From Crassaminicella thermophila (lineage in GTDB: Bacteria > Bacillota > Clostridia > Peptostreptococcales > Thermotaleaceae), in the NCBI RefSeq assembly GCF_008152325.1, contig NZ_CP042243.1, positions 124,001 to 188,000 on the forward strand: a DNA stretch of 64,000 nucleotides. The letters run 5' to 3'. Below are positions 1,547-42,743 of the stretch, in pieces. The notes under the pieces are model-generated. The model did not search any database. It was not told the DNA's origin and worked only from the letters and a program-made list of their open reading frames with translations. Made by a program: the position numbers and the translations under genes. Every line of letters begins with the position of its first letter. Within the stretch, counting starts at the first letter, position 1.

Positions 1547-2473
1547 ATGAATATGGTTATAGATGATGAAGCGAGAAATATTATAAAGGATGTTTTTAAA
1601 CAGAAGATTTCTATAAAACCTGTAGGCAATCATTATTTAGGGCGACATAGGGTCTATCTTGTAACGGATGAAAACAATCAATCTGTTATTTTTAAACTTT
1701 ATCTTAAAAAAAACAGGTGGAATAGAGAAGTGGCAACGTTAAAATTACTTTCAAATAGTAAAATCAAAGTACCAAAATTGATAGATTATGGTAGATGGAA
1801 TGAAAAAGAGTGGATGATTACAGAATATATTCAAGGAAAAATTTTTTCAAAGATAGAAGATGAAGTAGAGGTAAAAAATCAATTGAAAGTATTTAGAGAA
1901 ATGGGAAAAGAATTAGGGAAAATACATAACTTTAAGATCTTCGACTTTTTTGGGAATTGGGATGAAAATGGAAAAAGTCTAGATTATGGAATGGATTATA
2001 AAGAAGTTTTTAAAAGAAGATATTATTCTGTTTTAGAAAAGATTTTTGAAAAAGAACTTCCTCATAGGGAATTGCATAAAAAGGCAGCTCAATATATTGA
2101 AAAAAAATTTTGTGTTATTGAAAATGTTAAGAAAGCTGTATTATGCCATAATGATTTTGATATAAGGAATATAATTTTACGAAAAACAGACGATACTTGG
2201 ATGCTTGCAGGAATTATTGATTTTGAACAGAGTTTTCCGTGGGATAAAGATTTAGATATGGCTTACTTGTATTATAGGATTGCTTCAAAAAATAGAGGAT
2301 ATGAGAAAGCTTTTTTAGAAGGATATAAAGAAGAATCAGTATTAGAAGAAAGCTTTTATGAAAAAATGAAATTTTATTTAATATATATAGGTCTATATAT
2401 ATGCAGTTGGTCGTATGATAGAGCTTTTGACCATTATATGCAAGGAGTAAATATTTTAAAAGTGTTTATGTAA
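1547..2473 (+). CDS. APH-family phosphotransferase (aminoglycoside/choline kinase-like)
   Basis: This 308-residue protein has a small-molecule kinase fold. A Brenner motif, LCHNDFDIRNII (around residue 200), supplies the catalytic Asp and Asn. IIDFEQSFPWDKDLDMAY (around residue 224) supplies the metal-binding Asp. The N-terminal lobe has VIFKLYLKKN and WMITEYIQGK as a plausible nucleotide lobe and hinge. ATG 1547 is preferred because GGAG lies 9 bases upstream; the in-frame TTG at 1538 sits on that site. The stop is 14 bases before the giant multidomain gene, so the two are probably co-transcribed. The family phosphorylates antibiotics, choline, sugars and other alcohols. The substrate here is not known, and the context argues for a metabolic or modification role rather than drug resistance. 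Confidence 0.8.
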   Translation: MNMVIDDEARNIIKDVFKQKISIKPVGNHYLGRHRVYLVTDENNQSVIFKLYLKKNRWNREVATLKLLSNSKIKVPKLIDYGRWNEKEWMITEYIQGKIFSKIEDEVEVKNQLKVFREMGKELGKIHNFKIFDFFGNWDENGKSLDYGMDYKEVFKRRYYSVLEKIFEKELPHRELHKKAAQYIEKKFCVIENVKKAVLCHNDFDIRNIILRKTDDTWMLAGIIDFEQSFPWDKDLDMAYLYYRIASKNRGYEKAFLEGYKEESVLEESFYEKMKFYLIYIGLYICSWSYDRAFDHYMQGVNILKVFM

Positions 2474-2487
2474 AAAGGAGGGCAAAA

Positions 2488-5400
2488 ATGCAAAATGCAT
2501 TAGCAGATAGCTTATATTATAGAATTTTTAATGGATTAAAGGAATCAGATTTTTTAAAATTATTCAAGCTACAAAGAAGATTGATTTTTAATTATATAAA
2601 AGAAGATTCTTTTTTGGAAAAAGTTGATAGAATGGTGCAAAAAAAAGATTACAGTGTTCATGCTGTACTTGATATATGTGAAAACTTGATGAATGCTTTA
2701 GCAGAAGAGAATCCACCAGAGGATTGGTTAAACTATGTTTATCAGTTTGTTCTTAATAAATCTTTTCCAGAAGCAGTTGAAATTAAATTAATAGAAAGGC
2801 TAGAAAGACCTTGTGAGGTATATTTAAAGGTATTGAGGATTGTTTCTGATTTTGAAAGAGAAATTTCAAACAATATGAACAGTATTTATTTTTTAACGGA
2901 AGATGAAGAAAAAGAATTAGAAAATCCTAATGAGTATAGGCTTTTTAAGGAAGCTTTTAGAAATGATTATGTATATGAAATGATGAAACTTAATAAGGAA
3001 GTGATTGGCCATCATACGTTGGATCATGTATGTGGTGTGCATAACCTTGCTCTTTTTATTGGAAGGCAGTTTAAAAAAATAGGGCTTCCTGTAGATTTAG
3101 GTAGAGTTTCTGGTGCAGCGGCAGGACATGATATAGGAAAATTTGGATGCAGGAGAAATGAACAAAAAAGAGCACCTTACTTACACTATTATTATACAGA
3201 TGAATGGTTTAAAAAACATGATATTACATATATTCGCCATATAGCTGTAAATCATTCTACTTGGGATTTGGAGTTAGAAAATTTATCATTAGAATCTCTT
3301 ATTCTGATTTATTGTGATTTTCGTGTAAAAAAGAGAAGGACAAAAGATGGTGCAAAAATGCATATTTATAGCTTAGAAGAATCTTTTCATGTTATCTTAC
3401 AAAAGCTAGATAATGTAGATTATGAAAAAGAGAAAAGATACCATCGTGTTTATGCTAAATTAAAAGATTTCCAAGATTATATGCTTTATTTAGGAATAAA
3501 TTTAGATATAAAAGAAAATAACCAGCAGACTGCTATTCAACCAAAAGGGCCTAAGCATTATTGTTTGATGCAGGGAAAAGAAATTATAGAAAATATAAAA
3601 TATCTATCTATCCATCACAATATTAAACTAATGTACAAGCTAAGGGATGAGTCATCTTTAAATGCTATTTTAGAGAGTGCAAGAAGTGAAATGGAGTTAA
3701 ACCATCTTAGGGGTTATCTTCATGTATTTGAAGAATATTCTACTTATATGACACAAAAGCAAAAAATGATTACTATAAACTTTTTATATGAACAATTGAT
3801 GCATCCTGAAGAAGATATTAGAAAACAATGTGGAGAGCTTATTGGACTTTTGATCGCAAATTTTGATGAAGATTATAGAAAAGAAGTTCCTGAAGATGTT
3901 CATCTAAAGCACTTTGAAATAAGCAGCTATGCGCTTTTAGATAAATATTTGCAGCTGTTAGTTTATCCAGATCCTCAAATTATTCCAATTCATCGTATTT
4001 ATCTAGGCCATAGTATTCGAAATATGATTGAATCATTATTCTCAAATTGCGCAAGAAGTCAGATCAATGCATATATGGAAGTTTTATTAAGATACTATGA
4101 AAAAGATTTTAAAGAAAAAGATATTCAGTTATATTTGCTAGAAACGGCAAAATATGTCCCATTAAACAGCTGTGATAATATATGTTTAGATAAATTTATA
4201 AATTTTATAAAGAAAATGCTAGGTGAAAAAGATACTGATTTAAGACTTTGTGCTCTTGAAACTTTATATCATTTATTAAAAAGATCTTATATAAATAAGG
4301 AAATATGTACATCACTAAAAAGTATATTTTATGAGGAAATAAGTCATTCAGACTTATCTGTGGAAAATTTTTTAAGACAAAAAATTGTTAAATATCTAGG
4401 ATTAGATGAAGATAAGATTATAAAATATAGTAATGATTGGAACATAGACAGAAAAAAAATATCACATATGTTTTTAAGCAATCTAAAGACATCTACTGAA
4501 TCAGTAATAAAAAAAGTACAGATCGATTTTTTGTTACAATATGCAATGGAGCATTTAGATCAAATGGGGCTTTATACAGCAATTCATTATTGTAATATTT
4601 TAAAAGTTAGTTCTAGTGAAAGTGTTAGAAATCATGGAGGAAGAGCATTGCTTTCTCTTTTGCCTCATATACCCTTTGAACAAAGAAATGATGTAGTAAT
4701 TGAGTTGCTTCGAGGTCTTGAAGTTGAGGGGTATCAGTTTGCAAAGTATATACCTGACTATCTAGGAAAACTAATACTTTATTTAAAGCCAATTGAGCTA
4801 GATGAAGTAATAGATGATTTGGTTGAAAAAGTAAAACAAGCAAATCCTCAGATTAATACATTACTTTTGAATACAATAGGAGTGGCTATACAAAACTACT
4901 ATAAATATAAAGATTTATTTGAAGAAGATGAAAAGGAGTATAAGCTTCGTCTTGTTAAAATGCTTGGAGCTTTGCAAAATGGATTAGTACATTATAATGG
5001 ACAGGTAAAACAAGCTGCATTTCGTGTTATAGGAAAAGATATTTTTGGATGCAAATATTTAAATTTAGAGCAAAAAAATGATATTTTTCAGTTAATCGCA
5101 AAAAAATTACTTACATTAATAGGAGAAGAAGAAGAAGATAAGCTTTTGACATTTTTTACGCATGCTGCAGGATTAAATCATATCTACCGATTTATATCCG
5201 ATTATATATTTTATAAGGGAGATATGGATTTAAAAGTTTATGAAAAGGTTGCTTTTTTTCCAGGAACCTTTGATCCATTTTCTTTGGGACACAAGGAGAT
5301 TGCAAAAGAAATTCGTTCACTTGGCTTTGAAGTATATTTATCAGTAGACGAATTTTCATGGTCTAAAAGAGCACAACCTAATTTACTGAGAAGAAACATC

Positions 5401-7371
5401 ATCAAACTATCTATCGCAGATGAATTTGGAATTTATTTATATCCAGAGGATTTATCCACGAATATAGCAAATCATAATGATTTAAGAAAATTAAGAGAAG
5501 CTTTTCCTCATTCTGATGTTCATATTGTTGTTGGAAGTGATGTAGTACTGAATGCATCTGCTTATAAAAAAGAAGCAAATAAAAATTCTATACTTTCTTT
5601 TTCCCATATTATTTTTGAAAGAAAAAGTACATTATCTCTTGATGATGATGATCAAAGAATAGATGAGGCTATAAAAAATATAAAAAATAATGTTATTCGT
5701 TTGTCTCTTCCTCCACAATATGAAGATATTAGTTCTACTCAAATACGTAATTATATTGACCAAAACCGTGATATTTCAGAGCTAATTGATCCAATTGCAC
5801 AGAAATTTATTTATGAAAAAGGATTATATAGAAGAGCACCTCAATACAAAACTTTGATACAGACAAAATCTGTATATGTGGAAATTATTAATCGTTTAAC
5901 AGATGTTTTTTTAGAAAAACTATCAAATCTATCATTTCTGAAATATGAAGAAGCTTATGACAGGCTAAAAGAATTTAGAAAAAAGCTAAATCCAAGAATA
6001 CTTTTATTGCGTTCTATAGAAAAAGATGGAGAAATTCTTGGGTTCTCAGCATTTCATTGGCTTCGTTCAAGTATGATATTTAAAGAATTTAAGGATGAGA
6101 CTATTTCAGAGCATATAAGAAGAAACGGTATTGGAAGAATACTAGTAATAGATGGTATTTTTGTGAATAATAAAAGTGAGTTTGAAAATATTGAACAAAT
6201 GATATTAACAGAAACTCTTTCTTATGCACTTCCAAAGGATTATACTTATGCAGTGTATAAAAATATGCTAAATGGATATCATTCTGAATCAATGGGTGAA
6301 ATATTAAAGTGTCAAGGATTTGAACAAATAGCTTATGATGATAAATCTGTTTTTGTGGTAGATATGACACAGCCATCTACTTTATATTTAGACATAGATA
6401 GCATCATAAAAGAACCTTTTAGAAGCAATATACGTGTGATGAAAACAGTGAAACGATCAAGAAAAAGACTGCAAGAAGCGATTGCAAAGCTTTACCCTGG
6501 AAAGTTGGTTTTGTCTTTTGACAGAAATATGGTTTATGAAAATCTTATTAAGAAAATATGTGATGAAAATGGAGTTTCTACTATTCCTACTAATCCAAGA
6601 AAATTAGGCCCTGCTATGTGTGTACCCTTTGGGGCAATACTAAATGGAGCGATTATACCGAATACAGTAACAAAATCAATGCATACAGAAAAAATTTTTG
6701 ATCCTGATATGAAAAAATTTCGTATAGCTGCTTATCCATACTATTTAAAACTTGAAGATCAAGTCAAAATGATTCGTTCATTTGATAGACCTGTCATATT
6801 GGTTGATGATTTATTAAATAAAGGATACCGAATAAAAGCAATCGATCCTCTTTTTAAAAAAGAAAATATCAAAGTAAAGAAAATACTTGTTGGAATCCTT
6901 TCTGGTAGAGGAAAGGAATTGATGGATATACAAAATCGAAAAGTAGATAGTGCATATTTTATACCAAAGCTTAAGGTATGGTTTAATGAAAGTTTTTTGT
7001 ATCCTTTCATAGGTGGGGACACGATGTGGAGAGGAGAAGATTTAAAAACTAATATAATACCTTCTGTAAATTTAATACTCCCTTATACAGTTCCTACATT
7101 TATTCAAGGTGCATCTAAGGAATCTATTTATAATTTATCATATGTTTGCATTGAAAATGCAATGGATATACTAACCACATTGGAGGAAGAATATCAAAAA
7201 ATACATGAAAGAAGTTTGACGTTAAGGCATTTAGGAGAGGTGTTTATTTCACCTAAGTATCCAGACCATGGAAAAGATATATATTATGATATGAATCTAA
7301 ATCCATCGCACTACCTTAAAAATGACCTAGAGCATCTAAAACGTCTTAAAATGATTATGTTAGATAATTAA
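2488..7371 (+). CDS. Giant multidomain protein: HD domain, helical repeats, NadD-like nucleotidyltransferase, GNAT-like, PRTase-like
   Basis: This 1627-residue soluble protein starts at ATG after AAAGGAGGG. A helical N-terminus is followed by an HD-hydrolase-like region (about 160-345) with GHHTLDH and AAGHDIGKFG. Residues ~390-900 are Leu-rich helical repeats resembling HEAT/armadillo. About 920-1110 is a nucleotidyltransferase of the NadD/cytidylyltransferase fold: PGTFDPFSLGHKE, HIVVGSD and ISSTQIRNYI. The first His of the usual HxGH is Ser (SLGH). About 1150-1295 resembles a GNAT acetyltransferase (RRNGIGRILVIDGIFV). About 1320-1560 carries VILVDDLLNKGYR, like a PRPP loop of phosphoribosyltransferases. 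I know no characterised protein with this architecture. It suggests sequential handling of a nucleotide-like metabolite with the upstream kinase. The domain calls are by eye, and the GNAT and PRTase ones are the least certain. Confidence 0.72.
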   Translation: MQNALADSLYYRIFNGLKESDFLKLFKLQRRLIFNYIKEDSFLEKVDRMVQKKDYSVHAVLDICENLMNALAEENPPEDWLNYVYQFVLNKSFPEAVEIKLIERLERPCEVYLKVLRIVSDFEREISNNMNSIYFLTEDEEKELENPNEYRLFKEAFRNDYVYEMMKLNKEVIGHHTLDHVCGVHNLALFIGRQFKKIGLPVDLGRVSGAAAGHDIGKFGCRRNEQKRAPYLHYYYTDEWFKKHDITYIRHIAVNHSTWDLELENLSLESLILIYCDFRVKKRRTKDGAKMHIYSLEESFHVILQKLDNVDYEKEKRYHRVYAKLKDFQDYMLYLGINLDIKENNQQTAIQPKGPKHYCLMQGKEIIENIKYLSIHHNIKLMYKLRDESSLNAILESARSEMELNHLRGYLHVFEEYSTYMTQKQKMITINFLYEQLMHPEEDIRKQCGELIGLLIANFDEDYRKEVPEDVHLKHFEISSYALLDKYLQLLVYPDPQIIPIHRIYLGHSIRNMIESLFSNCARSQINAYMEVLLRYYEKDFKEKDIQLYLLETAKYVPLNSCDNICLDKFINFIKKMLGEKDTDLRLCALETLYHLLKRSYINKEICTSLKSIFYEEISHSDLSVENFLRQKIVKYLGLDEDKIIKYSNDWNIDRKKISHMFLSNLKTSTESVIKKVQIDFLLQYAMEHLDQMGLYTAIHYCNILKVSSSESVRNHGGRALLSLLPHIPFEQRNDVVIELLRGLEVEGYQFAKYIPDYLGKLILYLKPIELDEVIDDLVEKVKQANPQINTLLLNTIGVAIQNYYKYKDLFEEDEKEYKLRLVKMLGALQNGLVHYNGQVKQAAFRVIGKDIFGCKYLNLEQKNDIFQLIAKKLLTLIGEEEEDKLLTFFTHAAGLNHIYRFISDYIFYKGDMDLKVYEKVAFFPGTFDPFSLGHKEIAKEIRSLGFEVYLSVDEFSWSKRAQPNLLRRNIIKLSIADEFGIYLYPEDLSTNIANHNDLRKLREAFPHSDVHIVVGSDVVLNASAYKKEANKNSILSFSHIIFERKSTLSLDDDDQRIDEAIKNIKNNVIRLSLPPQYEDISSTQIRNYIDQNRDISELIDPIAQKFIYEKGLYRRAPQYKTLIQTKSVYVEIINRLTDVFLEKLSNLSFLKYEEAYDRLKEFRKKLNPRILLLRSIEKDGEILGFSAFHWLRSSMIFKEFKDETISEHIRRNGIGRILVIDGIFVNNKSEFENIEQMILTETLSYALPKDYTYAVYKNMLNGYHSESMGEILKCQGFEQIAYDDKSVFVVDMTQPSTLYLDIDSIIKEPFRSNIRVMKTVKRSRKRLQEAIAKLYPGKLVLSFDRNMVYENLIKKICDENGVSTIPTNPRKLGPAMCVPFGAILNGAIIPNTVTKSMHTEKIFDPDMKKFRIAAYPYYLKLEDQVKMIRSFDRPVILVDDLLNKGYRIKAIDPLFKKENIKVKKILVGILSGRGKELMDIQNRKVDSAYFIPKLKVWFNESFLYPFIGGDTMWRGEDLKTNIIPSVNLILPYTVPTFIQGASKESIYNLSYVCIENAMDILTTLEEEYQKIHERSLTLRHLGEVFISPKYPDHGKDIYYDMNLNPSHYLKNDLEHLKRLKMIMLDN

Positions 7372-7400
7372 ACCTTCTGGATTCAGAAGGTTTAATTTTT
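7368..7400 (+). terminator. Intrinsic terminator after giant gene
   Basis: A perfect 12-bp stem (TTAAACCTTCTG with CAGAAGGTTTAA) has a GATT loop and is followed by a run of T. It overlaps the stop codon of the giant gene. Confidence 0.9.
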
Positions 7401-7470: not shown

Positions 7471-8423
7471 ATGGTTGAGGAAAAAAGCATAAATGCATTT
7501 CAAAATGGTGATGAAATTCAAGGCTTTTTTATTTTAAAAAGAATAGAAAGAAAATTATCAGCAAATAATAAAAATTATCTAGATATTACTTTATCTGATA
7601 AAACAGGAGAGATCAATGCAAAGCTGTGGGATTGTGAAGAAGGACAAGAAAATATGTTTCCTGCTAAGAGTTTAATAAAAGTACGTGGGAATGTAAGTGA
7701 ATGGAAAGGAAAATTGCAGCTAAGAATAAACTTAATCAGGTTAGCAAATAAAGAAGATGGAAAAAATATCGAGGATTTTGTACAATCAGCTCCTTTAAGT
7801 GCTGAAGAAATGTTTGATGAGGTTTATACATTTGTTAAAAGAATTAAAAATAAAGATATAAAAAATATTGTAGATACGATTATAATGGAAGCAAAGGAAA
7901 AATTAATGTATTATCCAGCAGCAAAATCCTTGCATCATGCTATACGTTCAGGACTTTTGTATCACATATTGAGAATGTTAAGAACAGGGGAAAAAAACTA
8001 AGCATGGTTTATACAAATATTAATACAGATTTACTCTTTGCTGGTATACTTCTTCATGATATTGAAAAACTAGAAGAATTAGATGCAGATTCTTTAGGAA
8101 TAGCAGAGTATAGTACTCAGGGGCAATTGCTTGGGCATATTAATCTTGCAATAAACAAAATAGGTAAAGTTGGAGAAAAATTAGGTGCAGATAAAGAGGT
8201 TATAATGCTTTTACAACATATGGTATTATCCCATCATTATGAACCTGAATTTGGAAGTCCTAAAAAACCTATGATTCCAGAAGGAGAGCTTTTGCATTAT
8301 ATTGATTTGATTGATGCAAGAATGTATGATATGGAGGATCATTTAAAAAATATTAAAGAAGGAGAATTTACTGAACCTATATGGTCTTTAGATAATAGGA
8401 GATTATATAAACCATTTCTTTAA
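7471..8423 (+). pseudogene. yhaM: YhaM-family 3'-5' exoribonuclease (OB + HD), split by a frameshift
   Basis: Two adjacent frames together make one YhaM/CBF1-like protein. Bases 7471-8001 encode an OB-fold nucleic-acid binding domain (DITLSDKTGEINAKLWD) and the start of the HD domain (SLHHAIRSGLLYH). Bases 8004-8423 continue it with LLFAGILLHDIEK, LLQHMVLSHH and a C-terminus that matches the family. The first frame ends in TAA directly after an A7-C run (7991-7998). A -1 shift there reads smoothly as GEKKLSMVY. The run is the canonical slippery heptamer A-AAA-AAC in the zero frame. Options are a sequencing or assembly error, an inactivating one-base deletion, or -1 frameshifting. The usual HDIGK reads HDIEK here; the His-Asp pair is intact. 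Start ATG 7471 has GGAGGG upstream. Confidence 0.8.
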
Positions 8424-9859: not shown

Positions 9860-10077
9860 TTAGTATGTTAAAATTAAGTTGGTTGACATCGAAAGAGTCA
9901 AACCCTTATGTGTTCTTTTAAATTTTTATAATATTGAATAGACTTTGCACTGATCCTTTGGACAGGGACTAAAAAGATTTATGGATAGGAAATATGCACA
10001 AAAAATAGTTTGTGTTTTTAAATATTTATACCCTTTCTATGTCCGATAACAGGTTCGGTTTTAGAAAGGGTATTTTT
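9860..10077 (+). promoter_or_regulatory. Structured leader with terminator hairpin upstream of panD
   Basis: The 281-base gap before panD holds several potential stems: GGTTGAC pairing with GTCAAACC near 9880-9910, a small stem around 9955-9970, and a strong hairpin ending in T residues at 10028-10077 (ATACCCTTTCT with AGAAAGGGTAT, and CCGA/TCGG inside). The hairpin may simply end upstream transcription. Its position 40 bases before panD also fits an attenuated leader. A 'pan' RNA motif is known upstream of Firmicute panB/C/D genes; I cannot confirm that this is one. Confidence 0.45.
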
Positions 10078-10117: not shown

Positions 10118-10501
10118 ATGATGCTAAATATGTTTAAAGGAAAGATTCACAGAGCTACAGTAACAGAAGCAAATCTAAATTATGTAGGAAGTATTACTAT
10201 TGACAAGGCTCTGATGGATGCAGCAGGAATTTTACCAGGAGAAAGAGTTCAGATTGTCAATAATAATAATGGTGCTAGACTAGAAACCTATGTTATTGAA
10301 GGAGAAAGAGATAGTGGTATAATATGTTTAAACGGTGCTGCAGCTAGACTTGTCCAACCAGGGGATACAGTAATTATTATTGCATATTGTTGGATTGATG
10401 AAAAAGAAGTAAGAAGTTTTAAACCACGTGTTGTTTTTGTGGATGAAAATAATAAAATTGTTGAAAAATCAGATAAAGAAGTTCATGGGGATAAAAAATA
10501 G
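10118..10501 (+). CDS. panD: Aspartate 1-decarboxylase
   Basis: This pyruvoyl enzyme makes beta-alanine from L-aspartate for pantothenate and CoA. At 127 residues it has normal length. The self-cleavage site Gly24-Ser25 lies in YVGSITID at the expected residue numbers, so the proenzyme can generate its pyruvoyl group. [21 protein letters not shown] is the typical C-terminal core. The start ATG follows AAGGAGG. It stands alone here, without panB or panC, and is followed by a bidirectional terminator. Confidence 0.96.
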
Positions 10502-17223: not shown

Positions 17224-17238
17224 GTAATTAATTAAATG

Positions 17239-17324
17239 TTTTGCTAGGGGTGCCTTTTGGCTGAGAAGGAGAAATCCTAACCCTTAAAACCTGATGCAGC
17301 TAGTACTGCCGTAGGGAAGCAAGA
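17239..17324 (+). promoter_or_regulatory. TPP riboswitch 1 (THI element)
   Basis: The conserved cores are present: AGGGGTGC, GGCTGAGAAGG, AACCCTTAAAACCTGATGCA and GCCGTAGGGAAGC. A closing P1 stem (TTGCT/AGCAA) is visible. It senses thiamine pyrophosphate and represses the thi genes through the terminator just downstream. Confidence 0.95.
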
Positions 17325-17345
17325 AACCAAAAATTATTGATTTCT

Positions 17346-17373
17346 AAAAGCTTACCCTAGGGTAAGCTTTTTT
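17346..17373 (+). terminator. Terminator of TPP riboswitch 1
   Basis: The stem AAAAGCTTACC/GGTAAGCTTTT with loop CTAG is followed by T residues. It lies 22 bases after the first THI element. Confidence 0.9.
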
Positions 17374-17396
17374 CAATGGAAAAATTTAATATGATA

Positions 17397-17487
17397 TACA
17401 AGGGGAGCTCATAGGAATGGGCTGAGAAAGAGATGTTATCTCTGACCCTTATAACCTGATTTGGGTAATGCCAACGTAGGGAATATG
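17397..17487 (+). promoter_or_regulatory. TPP riboswitch 2 (THI element)
   Basis: This second complete THI core is in tandem with the first: AGGGGAGC, GGGCTGAGAAAG, TGACCCTTATAACCTGAT and GCCAACGTAGGGAA. The P3 helix differs in sequence and length from copy 1, so it is a diverged copy rather than a recent duplication. Confidence 0.95.
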
Positions 17488-17503
17488 TTTATGATTTTTA
17501 TTT

Positions 17504-34701: not shown

Positions 34702-34935
34702 ATAAAAAATAAAGGGCTTATCTCATCATAAGGACGAGAAAGCCCGTGGTACCACCTTAATTCGCATAAAGCCTCAATCCACGATAACGAGTGGGAACCG
34801 TCGAAGTTTTTGGCTTCGAAACTCCAGAGTGTAATTCATCTTGCCATGTACTGTAGACTTTTCACCAGCCAGTCTACTCTCTTTTTTGTAACCATGGGGA
34901 CTACTAGGCTCTTTCAACGTCTTTCTATATAACTA
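34702..34935 (-). promoter_or_regulatory. Tyrosine T-box leader of tyrS
   Basis: Reading the minus strand, the conserved T-box AAGGTGGTACCACGGG lies at 34743-34758, followed by the competing terminator (GGGCTTTCTCG ... GAGATAAGCCC, then a T run, 34702-34745). Stem I carries the AGTAGT motif, and a specifier loop reads GAAT-TAC-ACTC with the Tyr codon TAC at 34831-34833. Uncharged tRNA-Tyr should favour the antiterminator and tyrS expression. Confidence 0.95.
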
Positions 34936-39118: not shown

Positions 39119-40309
39119 ATGAGGTATTTTAATTATTTAACTCCTGAAGAAATAGAATCTATTTTTTATTCTCCTCCCCAGAACTTTAGTAGAGATAGCT
39201 CAAAGGATTTGCTTGCTTATACATTGGGTGCAACTTTATATATGCCTGCTACAAAGGAAAATATTGCAGAAGATATTATAACTAAGAAGAATGCAGGAAT
39301 AATGTCTATGGTTATCTGTTTAGAAGATGCTATTGGAGATTACGCAATTATAGAGGCAGAAAAATATGTATGTAGGCATTTTAACAAATTATCTTTGGCA
39401 ATAAAAAATGGGGAGATAGATGATCAAAATATTCCCCTTATTTTTTTAAGAGTAAGGAATAAAGAGCAGATGTTAAGCATGGCTGACCAAATAGGAGAAG
39501 ATATAAAATTACTAACAGGATTTGTGTTTCCAAAGTTCTCTTATGAAAATGGAGCAGGTTTTTTCGAAGCCTTAAAGAAGATAAATACTATATTAGGAAA
39601 AAAGCTATATGGTATGCCTATTTTTGAAACAGCGGATATAATCTATAAGGAAACAAGAATGCAGTCATTAGGTAAAATAAGGAATGTATTAGATGACTAT
39701 AATGAATTGGTACTCAATATACGAGTGGGAGCAACGGATTTTTCTAGTCTGTTTGGAATTAGGCGAGGTTATGATATGACTATTTATAATATAGCTGTTA
39801 TTCGGGATTGCATTGCAGATATATTAAATTGTTTTGCAAGAGAAGGTAGTCAGTATGTTATATCAGCTCCAGTTTGGGAATATTTTTCAAGTGGGGATAG
39901 AGTATTAAAGCCTCAATTACGCAGGAGTCCATTTGAAGATATTTATGGTTCAGAAGGAATTGAAATTAGGAAGGAGCTTTTAGATGCTTATTTAGATGGT
40001 CTTATTCAAGAAGTACTTTTAGATAAAGCAAATGGATTTATTGGAAAGACTATTATTCATCCAAGCCACATCACACCTGTACAGTCTCTATATGTAGTAA
40101 GCCATGAAGAATATATGGATGCATCTAGTATTATAGAAAATAACGATGGCAGTATTGGTGTTATGAAAAGCCAGTATAAAAATAAAATGAATGAAATAAA
40201 ACCACATTTAAATTGGGCAAAAAAAATTATGATAAAATCAAAAATATATGGGGTGTATCATGAAAGACAAAACTTTACCAGTTTACTTACCAAAAAAGTA
40301 TACGTATAA
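39119..40309 (+). CDS. CitE-like (HpcH/HpaI family) C-C lyase of the Ter module
   Basis: This 396-residue TIM-barrel lyase resembles citrate lyase beta subunits. SMVICLEDAIGD holds the metal-binding Glu and Asp, IFLRVRNKEQM follows, GMPIFETADI and NIRVGATDFSSLFGIRRG line the barrel, and KTIIHPSHI matches the terminal strand. In published genomic analysis of Ter systems, CitE-like genes occur with PRTases and HAD phosphatases in a predicted nucleoside-like metabolite pathway. It overlaps the next gene by 50 bases, so the two are translationally coupled. Confidence 0.85.
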   Translation: MRYFNYLTPEEIESIFYSPPQNFSRDSSKDLLAYTLGATLYMPATKENIAEDIITKKNAGIMSMVICLEDAIGDYAIIEAEKYVCRHFNKLSLAIKNGEIDDQNIPLIFLRVRNKEQMLSMADQIGEDIKLLTGFVFPKFSYENGAGFFEALKKINTILGKKLYGMPIFETADIIYKETRMQSLGKIRNVLDDYNELVLNIRVGATDFSSLFGIRRGYDMTIYNIAVIRDCIADILNCFAREGSQYVISAPVWEYFSSGDRVLKPQLRRSPFEDIYGSEGIEIRKELLDAYLDGLIQEVLLDKANGFIGKTIIHPSHITPVQSLYVVSHEEYMDASSIIENNDGSIGVMKSQYKNKMNEIKPHLNWAKKIMIKSKIYGVYHERQNFTSLLTKKVYV

Positions 40310-42743
40310 TATATTAAAAGATTTATGTGTAACAGTAAATATTACAAAAAATCATTACAATATTCCAATAGAAAGCTTGTTTTTAATGGCTGCAAGAAAA
40401 AATAAAAAAAGAGGATTTTTATTTGTAAGTAAATTACTTGGAAAACATATTCCTGTTTTTCCTCATGCTTCACTTTTAACTGGAGTGGCTTTAGCAAGAG
40501 AATATATGAAAGAGGTTTATGGAGAAAATACTTTTCTTACAAAAGATATAATAGATGGGTTGATTAATCAAGAAGATAGCAAATACATTTATGAAAGAAT
40601 TAAAGAACAATATATAGAGTTGCCAGAACAAACTATATTTATTGGCTTTGCAGAAACAGCTACTGCATTAGGGCATTCTGTGTATGATGCTTTTTCTAAA
40701 AATGCAACATATATACATACTACGAGGGAAAATATAATAAACCTTGATTCCGTTATTAATTTTGAAGAAGAACATTCTCATGCAACGACGCATAGACTTT
40801 ACCTGCTAGATAAAGAGTTATTATCATCGAAAGCTCCTGTTGTATTGGTAGATGATGAGATTACGACAGGAAAAACAGCAATCAATATTATAAAAGCAAT
40901 TCATAAAGCTTATCCAAGAAAGGAATATGCTATTGTATCTATACTTGATTGGCGTACTGATGAGGATAAAAAAAGATATGAAGAATTAGAAAAAAGTTTA
41001 GGAATAAAAGTGCACACTGTTTCACTTATTTCAGGTTCTATTGAAGTAGAAGGAAAACCGATTACAGATATAGAAGCTAATGATAAAAAAACAGTAAAAA
41101 ATAATATAAATCCAGTAATAAATATTTATAAATTACAAGAAAAAGAAGTATTTTTTAAAAGTATATTATTTTCTTCTAAAAATACATTAGGACAGATAAA
41201 TGCAAGCCCTTATTTGAAAGAAACAGCTAGATTTGGGATTACAAGCAAAGATCGTGATTATATAGATAGAGAATGTAAAAGAATAGGAAATATTTTAGCT
41301 AATATGAGAAAAGGAAAAAATACGCTCTGTCTTGGAACCGGAGAGTTTATGTATATACCTATGAAAATTGCTGCATATATGGGAGAAGGAGTAAAATATC
41401 ATTCTTCTACTCGAAGTCCTATTCATCCATATGATAAAGCTTTGTATGGAGTAAAAAATGCATTTTCGTTTGAGAGCTTTGATGATCCTTCTGTAATGAA
41501 TTATCTTTACAATATTCCTTATGGATATTATGATGATCTTTTTTTATTTTTAGAAAGAGAAGTAGAAAAAGAGAGATTAAATCCTTTAATAAAAGTGCTT
41601 AATCAGTTAGGAATTTATAATATAACTATTATTATATGTTCACATTATAACATTTCTAATCCTTCAATAATGGGAAGCTATGACAAAGAAGATGTGACTT
41701 TTCTTTTAAAGGATATTAGCAATGTAATGGAAGAGAGAGGAACGAAAGAGCGTGAAGAAGCAATACAAAAGGGAGTACACTATTCAGAAATGCTTCCTAT
41801 AGAATATAAGCCTTCTTCAGAATATATAGATTTATTCTATACATCATTAAAGGAATCGGCAAAAAAATTAGCAACAGCAGTAGGTGTTGTAGCTGAAAAG
41901 ATACTAAGGAATAGAGGATATGACATTGTTATTGCATCACTAGCTAGAGCAGGTACGCCTATAGGTATATTGATCAAGCGCTATATAGCTTATAAATACA
42001 ATATTAATGTTTTTCATTATAGTATTTCTATAATAAGAGGAAAAGGAATAGATGAAAACGCTATAAAATATATTCTAAAAAATCATCCAAACAAGGAAAT
42101 TCAATTTGTAGATGGTTGGACAGGAAAAGGAGCTATTACAAAAGTACTTCATAAAGCTTGTAAAGATTTTCAAGAAAAATACGGTATTTATTTAAATGAT
42201 GATTTGGCAGTACTTGCAGATCCAGGCTGTTGTGTATCTACTTTTGGCACAAGAGAGGATTTTTTAATTGCTAGTGCATGTTTAAATGCTACAGTTTCAG
42301 GGTTAGTTAGCCGAACAGTACATCGAAAAGATTTGATAGGGCCTAATGATTTTCATGGTGCAAAATATTATAAAGAATTAGAAGAAGAAGATGTATCAAA
42401 ATTTTTTATAGATACAATTACAAATGAATTTCAAAATGTAGAAGAAGACATAAATAAACAAGTTAAAATATCTTCTGATCCTACATGGGCAGGACTGAAG
42501 GATATTGAAAAAATTCAAAAGGAATTTAAAATAGAAGATATAAACTTGATAAAACCTGGTATTGGAGAAACTACAAGAGTGTTACTTAGAAGAGTTCCAT
42601 GGAAGATTCTTGTAAAGAAGAAAGAAAATCCAAACTTAAAACACATTTTGCTTTTAGCAAAAGAAAAATGTGTTCCTGTTGAAATATATTCAAGTATGAC
42701 TTATGAATGTTGTGGATTAATAAAACCTTTAAAGGGGAAATAG
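40260..42743 (+). CDS. Fused PRTase_2 - TRSP - PRTase_1 (StiP) - PELOTA protein of the Ter module
   Basis: This 827-residue protein joins what are often two genes. Residues ~30-270 form a phosphoribosyltransferase with PRPP motif VVLVDDEITTGKT (around 195). About 300-410 is the TRSP domain, named for SSTRSPI (around 382). About 500-720 is the second PRTase-like (StiP/PRTase_1) domain with IASLARAGTPIG and FVDGWTGKGAI (around 616). About 738-827 is a PELOTA-type RNA-binding domain (LLLAKEKCVPVEIYSSMTYECCG). ATG 40260 is inside the CitE-like gene, after GGGGTG. It is predicted to make a PRPP-derived, nucleoside-like product; the RNA-binding tail hints at action on RNA. Confidence 0.85.
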   Translation: MKDKTLPVYLPKKYTYNILKDLCVTVNITKNHYNIPIESLFLMAARKNKKRGFLFVSKLLGKHIPVFPHASLLTGVALAREYMKEVYGENTFLTKDIIDGLINQEDSKYIYERIKEQYIELPEQTIFIGFAETATALGHSVYDAFSKNATYIHTTRENIINLDSVINFEEEHSHATTHRLYLLDKELLSSKAPVVLVDDEITTGKTAINIIKAIHKAYPRKEYAIVSILDWRTDEDKKRYEELEKSLGIKVHTVSLISGSIEVEGKPITDIEANDKKTVKNNINPVINIYKLQEKEVFFKSILFSSKNTLGQINASPYLKETARFGITSKDRDYIDRECKRIGNILANMRKGKNTLCLGTGEFMYIPMKIAAYMGEGVKYHSSTRSPIHPYDKALYGVKNAFSFESFDDPSVMNYLYNIPYGYYDDLFLFLEREVEKERLNPLIKVLNQLGIYNITIIICSHYNISNPSIMGSYDKEDVTFLLKDISNVMEERGTKEREEAIQKGVHYSEMLPIEYKPSSEYIDLFYTSLKESAKKLATAVGVVAEKILRNRGYDIVIASLARAGTPIGILIKRYIAYKYNINVFHYSISIIRGKGIDENAIKYILKNHPNKEIQFVDGWTGKGAITKVLHKACKDFQEKYGIYLNDDLAVLADPGCCVSTFGTREDFLIASACLNATVSGLVSRTVHRKDLIGPNDFHGAKYYKELEEEDVSKFFIDTITNEFQNVEEDINKQVKISSDPTWAGLKDIEKIQKEFKIEDINLIKPGIGETTRVLLRRVPWKILVKKKENPNLKHILLLAKEKCVPVEIYSSMTYECCGLIKPLKGK

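Follow-up and report, generated by a model that had tools for sequence, protein, structure and literature searches.

A five-domain protein with HD, HEAT-type, NadD-like, GNAT-fold and PRTase-like parts in Crassaminicella thermophila, and its partner genes

NadR is an NMN adenylyltransferase combined with a ribosylnicotinamide kinase. In most mycoplasmas, NadD is fused to the HD hydrolase YqeK, and in many Gram-positive bacteria the two are clustered (PMC9426524). The HD part of the fusion has been proposed to remove the mistakes of NadD and so to proofread NAD synthesis (PMC9426524). The YqeK–NadD fusion is the nearest precedent for HD and NadD on one chain.

Here, we describe a protein from Crassaminicella thermophila in which these two kinds of domain are part of a longer chain, with the order HD, HEAT solenoid, NadD-like nucleotidyltransferase, GNAT fold and PRTase-like end. 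It is encoded in a 64,000-nucleotide stretch of DNA (assembly GCF_008152325.1, contig NZ_CP042243.1, positions 124,001 to 188,000 of the forward strand), which we refer to as the window. None of the parts is new in kind, nor is the combination of HD with NadD; what is new, to our knowledge, is the assembly of all five, together with the partner genes and the two modes of partnering described below. A literature search of limited extent found no description of such a protein or gene set.

Build and conservation of the five-domain protein

The analysis started from a prediction, made from the letters of the window, that a single frame encodes a 1627-residue multidomain protein. This frame does run from an ATG to a stop without interruption (Table 1), and it contains all four motifs that had been quoted, GHDIGK at residues 213–218, GTFDPFSLGH at 926–935, ISSTQIR at 1081–1087 and VILVDDLLNKGYR at 1436–1448. 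Since the window protein on its own passes the Pfam cut-off only for CTP_transf_like, we tested the domain claims on homologues with a lax limit of E up to 1. Under this limit, Pfam HD was matched in 29/35 homologues (best E 1e-7), Pribosyltran in 21/35 (best E 7.6e-5) and HEAT in 14/19, with every unrelated family in the same scans staying at or below 3/35 and 3/19, respectively.

Two trivial origins of this build were rejected. A chance combination does not agree with the full-length homologues that carry the same motifs in many genomes, or with key residues that are invariant or nearly so in 59–61 copies. An assembly fusion does not agree with a second full-length copy in the same genome (C1:1211184-1216085), which is 57% identical to the window copy. 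Because full-length relatives occur in many genomes, the build is that of an old conserved protein and no accident of one assembly. The terminator-like stem-loop at the end of the gene has its position as sole support, 2 such sites being present in 9.9 kb vs 2.1 expected from shuffles. Further downstream, at 7471-8423 (+), the exoribonuclease YhaM appears as two ORFs that correspond to the two halves of PRK13480, OB (7471-8001) and HD (8004-8423), through either a natural split or a frameshift.

Table 1. Features of the five-domain gene and its upstream neighbour (positions in the window).
Feature	Position	Strand	Basis
APH/choline-kinase-fold small-molecule kinase, 308 aa from ATG	1547-2473	+	Pfam APH E 1.7e-18 (scan run from TTG at 1538)
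Five-domain protein	2488-7371	+	Single uninterrupted frame of 1627 aa from an ATG
Residues 1-139, N-terminal helical region, weakly conserved	2488-2904	+	
Residues 140-345, HD phosphohydrolase domain	2905-3522	+	Pfam HD in homologues, invariant residues
GHDIGK motif	3124-3141	+	
Residues 380-910, HEAT-type helical solenoid	3625-5217	+	Model, structure matches, Pfam HEAT
Residues 915-1116, NadD-like nucleotidyltransferase domain	5230-5835	+	Pfam, NCBIfam, PDB profile, hhalign, conservation
GTFDPFSLGH motif (HxGH position)	5263-5292	+	
ISSTQIR motif	5728-5748	+	
Residues 1127-1295, GNAT-fold domain without acetyl-CoA loop (pseudo-GNAT)	5866-6372	+	
Residues 1310-1627, PRTase-like domain and conserved C-terminal extension	6415-7368	+	Pribosyltran matches
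VILVDDLLNKGYR, PRPP-loop-like motif	6793-6831	+	
Terminator-like 14-pair stem-loop with T run	7366-7397	+	At end of the five-domain gene

The HD domain that had been proposed from GHDIGK is borne out by the homologue matches and by its metal residues, H180, H214, D215 and D277, which are kept in 59/59 of the copies reaching this region; the window copy itself scores 18.4 for Pfam HD vs a cut-off of 22. The domain has a family signature around NHSTWDLELE. Comparison with the YqeK-like protein of the same genome gave an hhalign Prob of 7.4 with a single-sequence template, which has low power, and no YqeK model was found among the NCBIfam matches of the window protein at E up to 0.1.

The long helical repeats that follow, also part of the original prediction, turned out to form a HEAT-type solenoid. 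The predicted model of residues 1–915 has a mean pLDDT of 84.6 and is a helical solenoid that resembles karyopherins, SF3B1 and PP2A-A in a structure search (Z up to 14.7), although helical repeats may reach Z of about 13 from their arrangement alone. The top row combines Z 14.7 with an rmsd of 13.6, and SF3B1 was found at Z 14.3 with an rmsd of 4.0 over 237 residues.

For the nucleotidyltransferase part, the expected NadD/cytidylyltransferase fold also held. We found a Pfam nucleotidyltransferase match in 19/19 homologues, and hhalign aligned the domain over its full length with the NadD of the same genome, whose gene was named by eye from motifs (Prob 97.2, E 3e-11, 181 columns). Among NCBIfam models, NadD (1.4e-11) precedes CoaD (1e-4) for the window protein, and the best score, 44.2 bits, misses the NadD equivalog cut-off of 150. 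PDB profile searches likewise put NadD/NMNAT and the uncharacterised structure 3h05 ahead of CoaD, whereas in a single-sequence PDB search NadD/NMNAT and CoaD were both insignificant, with CoaD slightly ahead. The motifs are [ST]x[GS]H, DEFSWSK (an extra family signature), a GSD and NASAY region, and ISSTxIR. At the first His position of HxGH, we found S in 49/61 copies, T in 12/61 and never H, while the second His (H935) is present in 61/61. Within ISSTxIR, S1082 is kept in 59/61, S1083 in 60/61 and R1087 in 60/61, and position 1084 is T or S in 55/61. D1018 is kept in 60/61 and Tyr1026 in 61/61, the latter aligning with a Trp of the genome's own NadD that we take to stack on nicotinate. Ser in place of the first His may, as originally suggested, signal a changed substrate, yet the NCBIfam and PDB profile searches favour NadD/NMNAT over CoaD.

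The GNAT-like stretch also holds, as a fold. This part of the C-terminal model is confident (block pLDDT 75–91 for model residues 231–390), and model residues 223–391 match GNAT chains with Z up to 13.2 (rmsd 2.5–3.1 over 153–154 residues). The R/Q-x-x-G-x-G/A acetyl-CoA loop after the fourth strand is missing: within residues 1200–1262, the pattern occurs in 1/61 copies, the window copy, where it lies before the strand instead of after it. To judge by these residues, the GNAT part probably does not acetylate.

The PRTase-like end is the least certain domain, because its structure is poorly predicted and its sequence compares weakly with those of genuine PRTases. What stands of the prediction here is the Pribosyltran match in homologues, which fell to 2/19 in a full-length scan and amounts to 11.3 bits vs a cut-off of 26.3 for the window copy. 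In the PRPP loop, D1440 (60/61), D1441 (57/61) and G1446 (60/61) are conserved, but the loop lacks the Thr/Ser-Gly-x-Thr/Ser of type I PRTases, position 1445 being K in 48/61 and position 1448 R in 60/61. A working PRTase is therefore doubtful, since the phosphate-binding Thr/Ser are missing. Block pLDDT in this part is 22–75, mostly below 60, and a profile search of the PDB gave just a weak match to an HPRT loop (E 0.17). No specific relative was found among 11 PRTase-like proteins of the same genome and one PyrE (hhalign Prob 0.3–7.9), a comparison of low power with single-sequence templates in which a control NadD gave Prob 0.1 and the genome's ten clear PRTases stayed below Prob 8.

In the C-terminal model, the nucleotidyltransferase and PRTase-like parts are both of low confidence. 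The VIA lists were filled by GNAT chains for the C-terminal model and by the HEAT part for the N-terminal model, and thus the PRTase, nucleotidyltransferase and HD folds were barely probed by structure. No unrelated fold emerged for residues 920–1110, and loss of active residues in most homologues did not occur. None was assigned to residues 1320–1560 either, but there the predicted structure is poor.

Distribution and partner genes

We found relatives of the protein, 32–73% identical, of the same build and most of them full length, in 13/16 genomes of the family, 29/341 of the class and 8/398 of the phylum, all counts including the C. thermophila genome itself. A scan with six peptide patterns over one genome per species (84,980 species) confirmed 8 loci, 7 labelled as Clostridia or their members and 1 as a delta proteobacterium; the copy with the latter label groups with a Clostridia MAG in the tree. 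No copy was detected in the phage records or viral contigs searched. A phage or plasmid element was rejected as its setting, the sole "plasmid" match being a 2.63 Mb Acetoanaerobium record that is probably a chromosome. This record (NZ_CP154629.1, locus L062), titled plasmid pTPELB2 and chromosome-like in size, bears the three-gene operon described below.

In a FastTree phylogeny of 58 copies, the window copy belongs to a five-genome clade beside copies that have genes 2 and 1 (see below), and the clade of the other paralogue repeats these five genomes in identical order. These mirrored paralogue clades within one family, together with a constant metabolic gene order, suggest vertical inheritance. 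In eight homologue pairs, dN/dS (NG86) was below 0.25 for each computable domain and up to 0.40 for the N-terminal 139 residues; the window gene is in none of these pairs, two of which lie inside its clade. As dS exceeds 1 in three pairs and the calculation failed for GNAT and PRT in one pair, these values are rough.

Two redox genes accompany the five-domain gene. A first comparison of flanks found genes 2 and 1 adjoining in 22/28 copies. In the larger set, gene 2, of the LDH/MDH fold, starts no more than 300 bases 3' of the five-domain gene in 49/63 copies, and gene 1, with a C-terminal FMN_red domain, is visible behind it in 40/49; for the other 9/49, the available sequence reaches at most about 1.5 kb downstream. 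In 3/63 copies, the contig ends too early to judge gene 2. The remaining 11/63 copies, without an adjoining gene 2, are 1) the window copy and its four orthologues, 2) one whose genome carries genes 2 and 1 on a different contig, 3) two with gene 2 about 5.4–5.7 kb downstream and 4) three second copies whose genome has another copy with an adjoining gene 2.

The search for co-occurring genes that the original prediction had proposed links these redox genes, as well as a kinase family, to the five-domain gene. In the phylum draw, the five-domain gene, gene 2 and gene 1 each occur in 8/398 genomes, the same 8, and none was found in the other 390 (E up to 1e-20). Because profile rows were taken from beside the five-domain gene, the profiles of genes 2 and 1 are biased in the 7/8 genomes that gave rows; kinship was ignored, and the statistics are not independent. 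The unbiased part is the absence from 390 genomes and the presence in genome G341. Within the family, gene 2 is found in 12/16 genomes, and the one genome with the five-domain gene alone is 68% complete, its contig ending 240 bases past that gene.

Both partners have invariant residues. In gene 2, R206, D238, R280 and H304 are invariant in 17/17 and align with the catalytic segments of LDH, in which we presume the corresponding residues to play their usual roles, and the Rossmann GxGDVG region is kept. Gene 1 matches FMN_red at E 7.4e-20 and has four Cys invariant in 17/17, which may hold an iron-sulfur cluster. A fusion of gene 2 to the five-domain gene, raised by open frames of more than 2070 aa in genomes G675 and G618, was rejected: in G675, the five-domain gene stops at TGA and the ATG of gene 2 follows 20-odd bases on in the same frame, and G618 was judged from ORF coordinates only. 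At one locus (L049, genome G011), gene 2 was matched in two pieces in different frames, a frameshift that is either real or a sequencing error.

No riboswitch was found at the operon head in 14 loci at Rfam gathering scores, or near the five-domain gene in the window. Elsewhere in the window, RNA elements include a pan motif at 9880-9975 (+) shortly 5' of panD (10118-10501), a tandem pair of TPP riboswitch aptamers at 17236-17500 (+) and a T-box leader at 34727-34926 (−).

The copy in the window is a second paralogue, which lacks genes 2 and 1 and has a different neighbour. A small-molecule kinase gene ends 14 nt 5' of it, with GGAGG in the gap, and its product is also matched by the models for choline kinase and fructosamine kinase. 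Of the eight second copies that we found to lack gene 2, 7/8 adjoin a kinase of one tight family (40–65% identical to the window kinase), four upstream on the same strand and three divergent. The solo copy of genome G006 has no adjoining kinase, and none was found elsewhere in that genome at E up to 1e-6. The kinase family (E up to 1e-25) occurs in 8/341 genomes of the class, all among the 29 with the five-domain gene, and lies beside a copy of it in four and elsewhere in four. The chance of such an overlap is 1e-9, or 2.4e-5 without the four genomes that fed the kinase profile (4/4 within 25/337), kinship being ignored in both values. In genome G433 (L132 917-7369), the kinase gene sits between pyrD and pyrE, overlapping pyrE by 4 bases per ORF coordinates, an isolated instance that would hint at a substrate of nucleoside type.

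Taken together, these findings show a shared build, conserved residues, a recurrent gene order and co-occurrence of the five-domain gene with its partners.

Possible functions in dinucleotide metabolism

The genome holds separate CoaD, RibF and NadD genes, with a YqeK-like gene directly behind NadD (all named by eye). Plain NAD synthesis thus does not need the five-domain protein, which, next to these genes, is an extra nucleotidyltransferase-plus-HD device. Its layout and two redox neighbours suggest a so far unknown step in vitamin-like cofactor metabolism, and the synthesis or salvage of a modified nucleotide, as originally predicted, fits the partner genes. From the conserved sites and neighbours, we infer its catalysis, substrate and direction, and the role of each partner, as follows.

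We tentatively favour, as a possibility somewhat short of an even one, that the protein makes or edits an NAD-like dinucleotide, working like NadD–YqeK fusions or NadR. Its core would be the domain that resembles NMN/NaMN adenylyltransferases, sharing its chain with a metal-dependent HD phosphohydrolase to which it is coupled. The former would join a mononucleotide to a nucleotidyl group, yielding an NAD-like dinucleotide, and the latter would cleave wrong or used products, as proposed for YqeK with NadD. The HEAT solenoid would carry the domains, the GNAT fold may have been kept as a structural or binding module, and the PRTase-derived domain may bind, or may once have used, PRPP or ribose phosphate. 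Where genes 2 and 1 follow, which is the more frequent arrangement, their products (a protein of the 2-hydroxyacid-dehydrogenase fold and the flavoprotein with four Cys, respectively) would either use this dinucleotide or help to make it; for the window paralogue, the neighbouring APH-type kinase would provide a phosphorylated substrate. Since a dehydrogenase and a flavoprotein are the constant partners, the simplest joint reading would be that one set of genes covers the making, checking and use of an NAD-like dinucleotide. In a bolder version, which we regard as rather speculative, the three genes, optionally joined by the kinase, would make and use a dinucleotide redox cofactor other than NAD. 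The five-domain protein would build it, genes 2 and 1 would encode its dedicated oxidoreductases, and HD would keep this cofactor and NAD apart. Several points speak against the favoured reading, namely the change of HxGH to [ST]x[GS]H, the altered PRPP loop, the separate NadD and YqeK-like genes and the low-power comparison that showed no specific tie of the HD domain to YqeK. Genes 2 and 1 could as well serve a fermentation step.

The redox partners in the same operon also fit a quality-control function. The five-domain protein would then remove or re-make damaged or mis-made NAD(H)-type dinucleotides like NadD–YqeK in a minimal Mycoplasma, with gene 2 and the flavoprotein as repair oxidoreductases, and the pairing of HD with NadD does have a published, proposed proofreading role (PMC9426524). 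We nevertheless consider this unlikely, as the genome also has a NadD–YqeK pair, the low-power comparison above saw no specific relation of the HD domain to YqeK, and a patchy spread (8/398) is odd for a general repair need. We are similarly doubtful of a nucleotide-sensing scaffold, whose domains would bind NAD-, PRPP- and CoA-type ligands while the HEAT solenoid signals to genes 2 and 1 or the kinase, with little or no catalysis. The missing GNAT loop, a PRPP loop altered in nearly all copies and the length of the solenoid agree with such a role, but invariant HD metal residues and nearly invariant nucleotidyltransferase residues go beyond the needs of ligand binding, and purifying selection acts on all domains.

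The kinase raises yet another reading, the activation of a phosphometabolite other than NAD, in which an alcohol or sugar would first be phosphorylated by the kinase and the resulting phosphate then converted to a CDP- or ADP-linked compound by the nucleotidyltransferase; LicA and LicC are the model for such a pairing of kinase and nucleotidyl activation. Although the kinase family adjoins 7/8 solo second copies and the window kinase has matches to choline kinase and fructosamine kinase models, NadD is the best NCBIfam match of the nucleotidyltransferase, most genomes with the five-domain protein have no such kinase (8/341 vs 29/341) and the position between pyrD and pyrE in G433 hints at a nucleoside-like substrate instead, which makes this distinctly improbable. 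Finally, some large multidomain defence proteins contain HD and nucleotidyltransferase parts, and the protein could be an anti-phage or conflict protein built from repurposed nucleotide domains. We give this hardly any credence: searches of PADLOC and PHROGs at E up to 0.1 gave no match, no copy was seen in the phage records or viral contigs searched, and the mirrored paralogue clades and constant gene order noted above speak for vertical inheritance.

A large protein in which two sites for handling nucleotides seem intact, and which has constant redox partners, is kept across scattered Clostridia-type genomes. Its co-occurrence with these partners defines a testable pathway, a set of three or four genes with a product that could be found by metabolomics. 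Should this product be an NAD-like cofactor, new or edited, as in the reading that we tentatively favour, it would have a bearing on the separation of redox pools in anaerobes.

Comparison with described systems

Individual parts of the protein differ from their known counterparts to various degrees. The GNAT part shares the predicted fold of GNAT acetyltransferases but not their acetyl-CoA pyrophosphate loop. With type I PRTases (PF00156), the C-terminal end shares a hydrophobic strand, a DD pair and a G rightly placed in the PRPP loop, the Thr/Ser of which are here mostly K and R. Another large protein that mixes a PRTase with other domains is encoded in the window at 40248-42743 (+), where a gene for PRTase_2/TRSP/StiP/PELOTA_1 overlaps a C-C_Bond_Lyase gene (39119-40309, +); all models score far over their cut-offs, and we take the pair to be of the tellurite-stress (Ter) type, a link that the description of the StiP model also makes. 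Its other domains are not those of the five-domain protein, and the PRPP loop alone aligns between the two (Prob 6.2, 22 columns).

The likeness to NadR lies in an NMNAT-type domain working with a kinase, found in the window as neighbouring genes. Unlike in NadR, the window kinase is of the APH type and encoded separately, and HD, HEAT, GNAT and PRTase-like parts are added. NadD–YqeK (PMC9426524) resembles the five-domain protein in uniting an HD phosphohydrolase and a NadD-fold domain in one chain. In contrast, the HD domain of the five-domain protein lies about 570 residues before the nucleotidyltransferase, three more domains are present, and the protein has constant redox partner genes and coexists with a NadD–YqeK gene pair.
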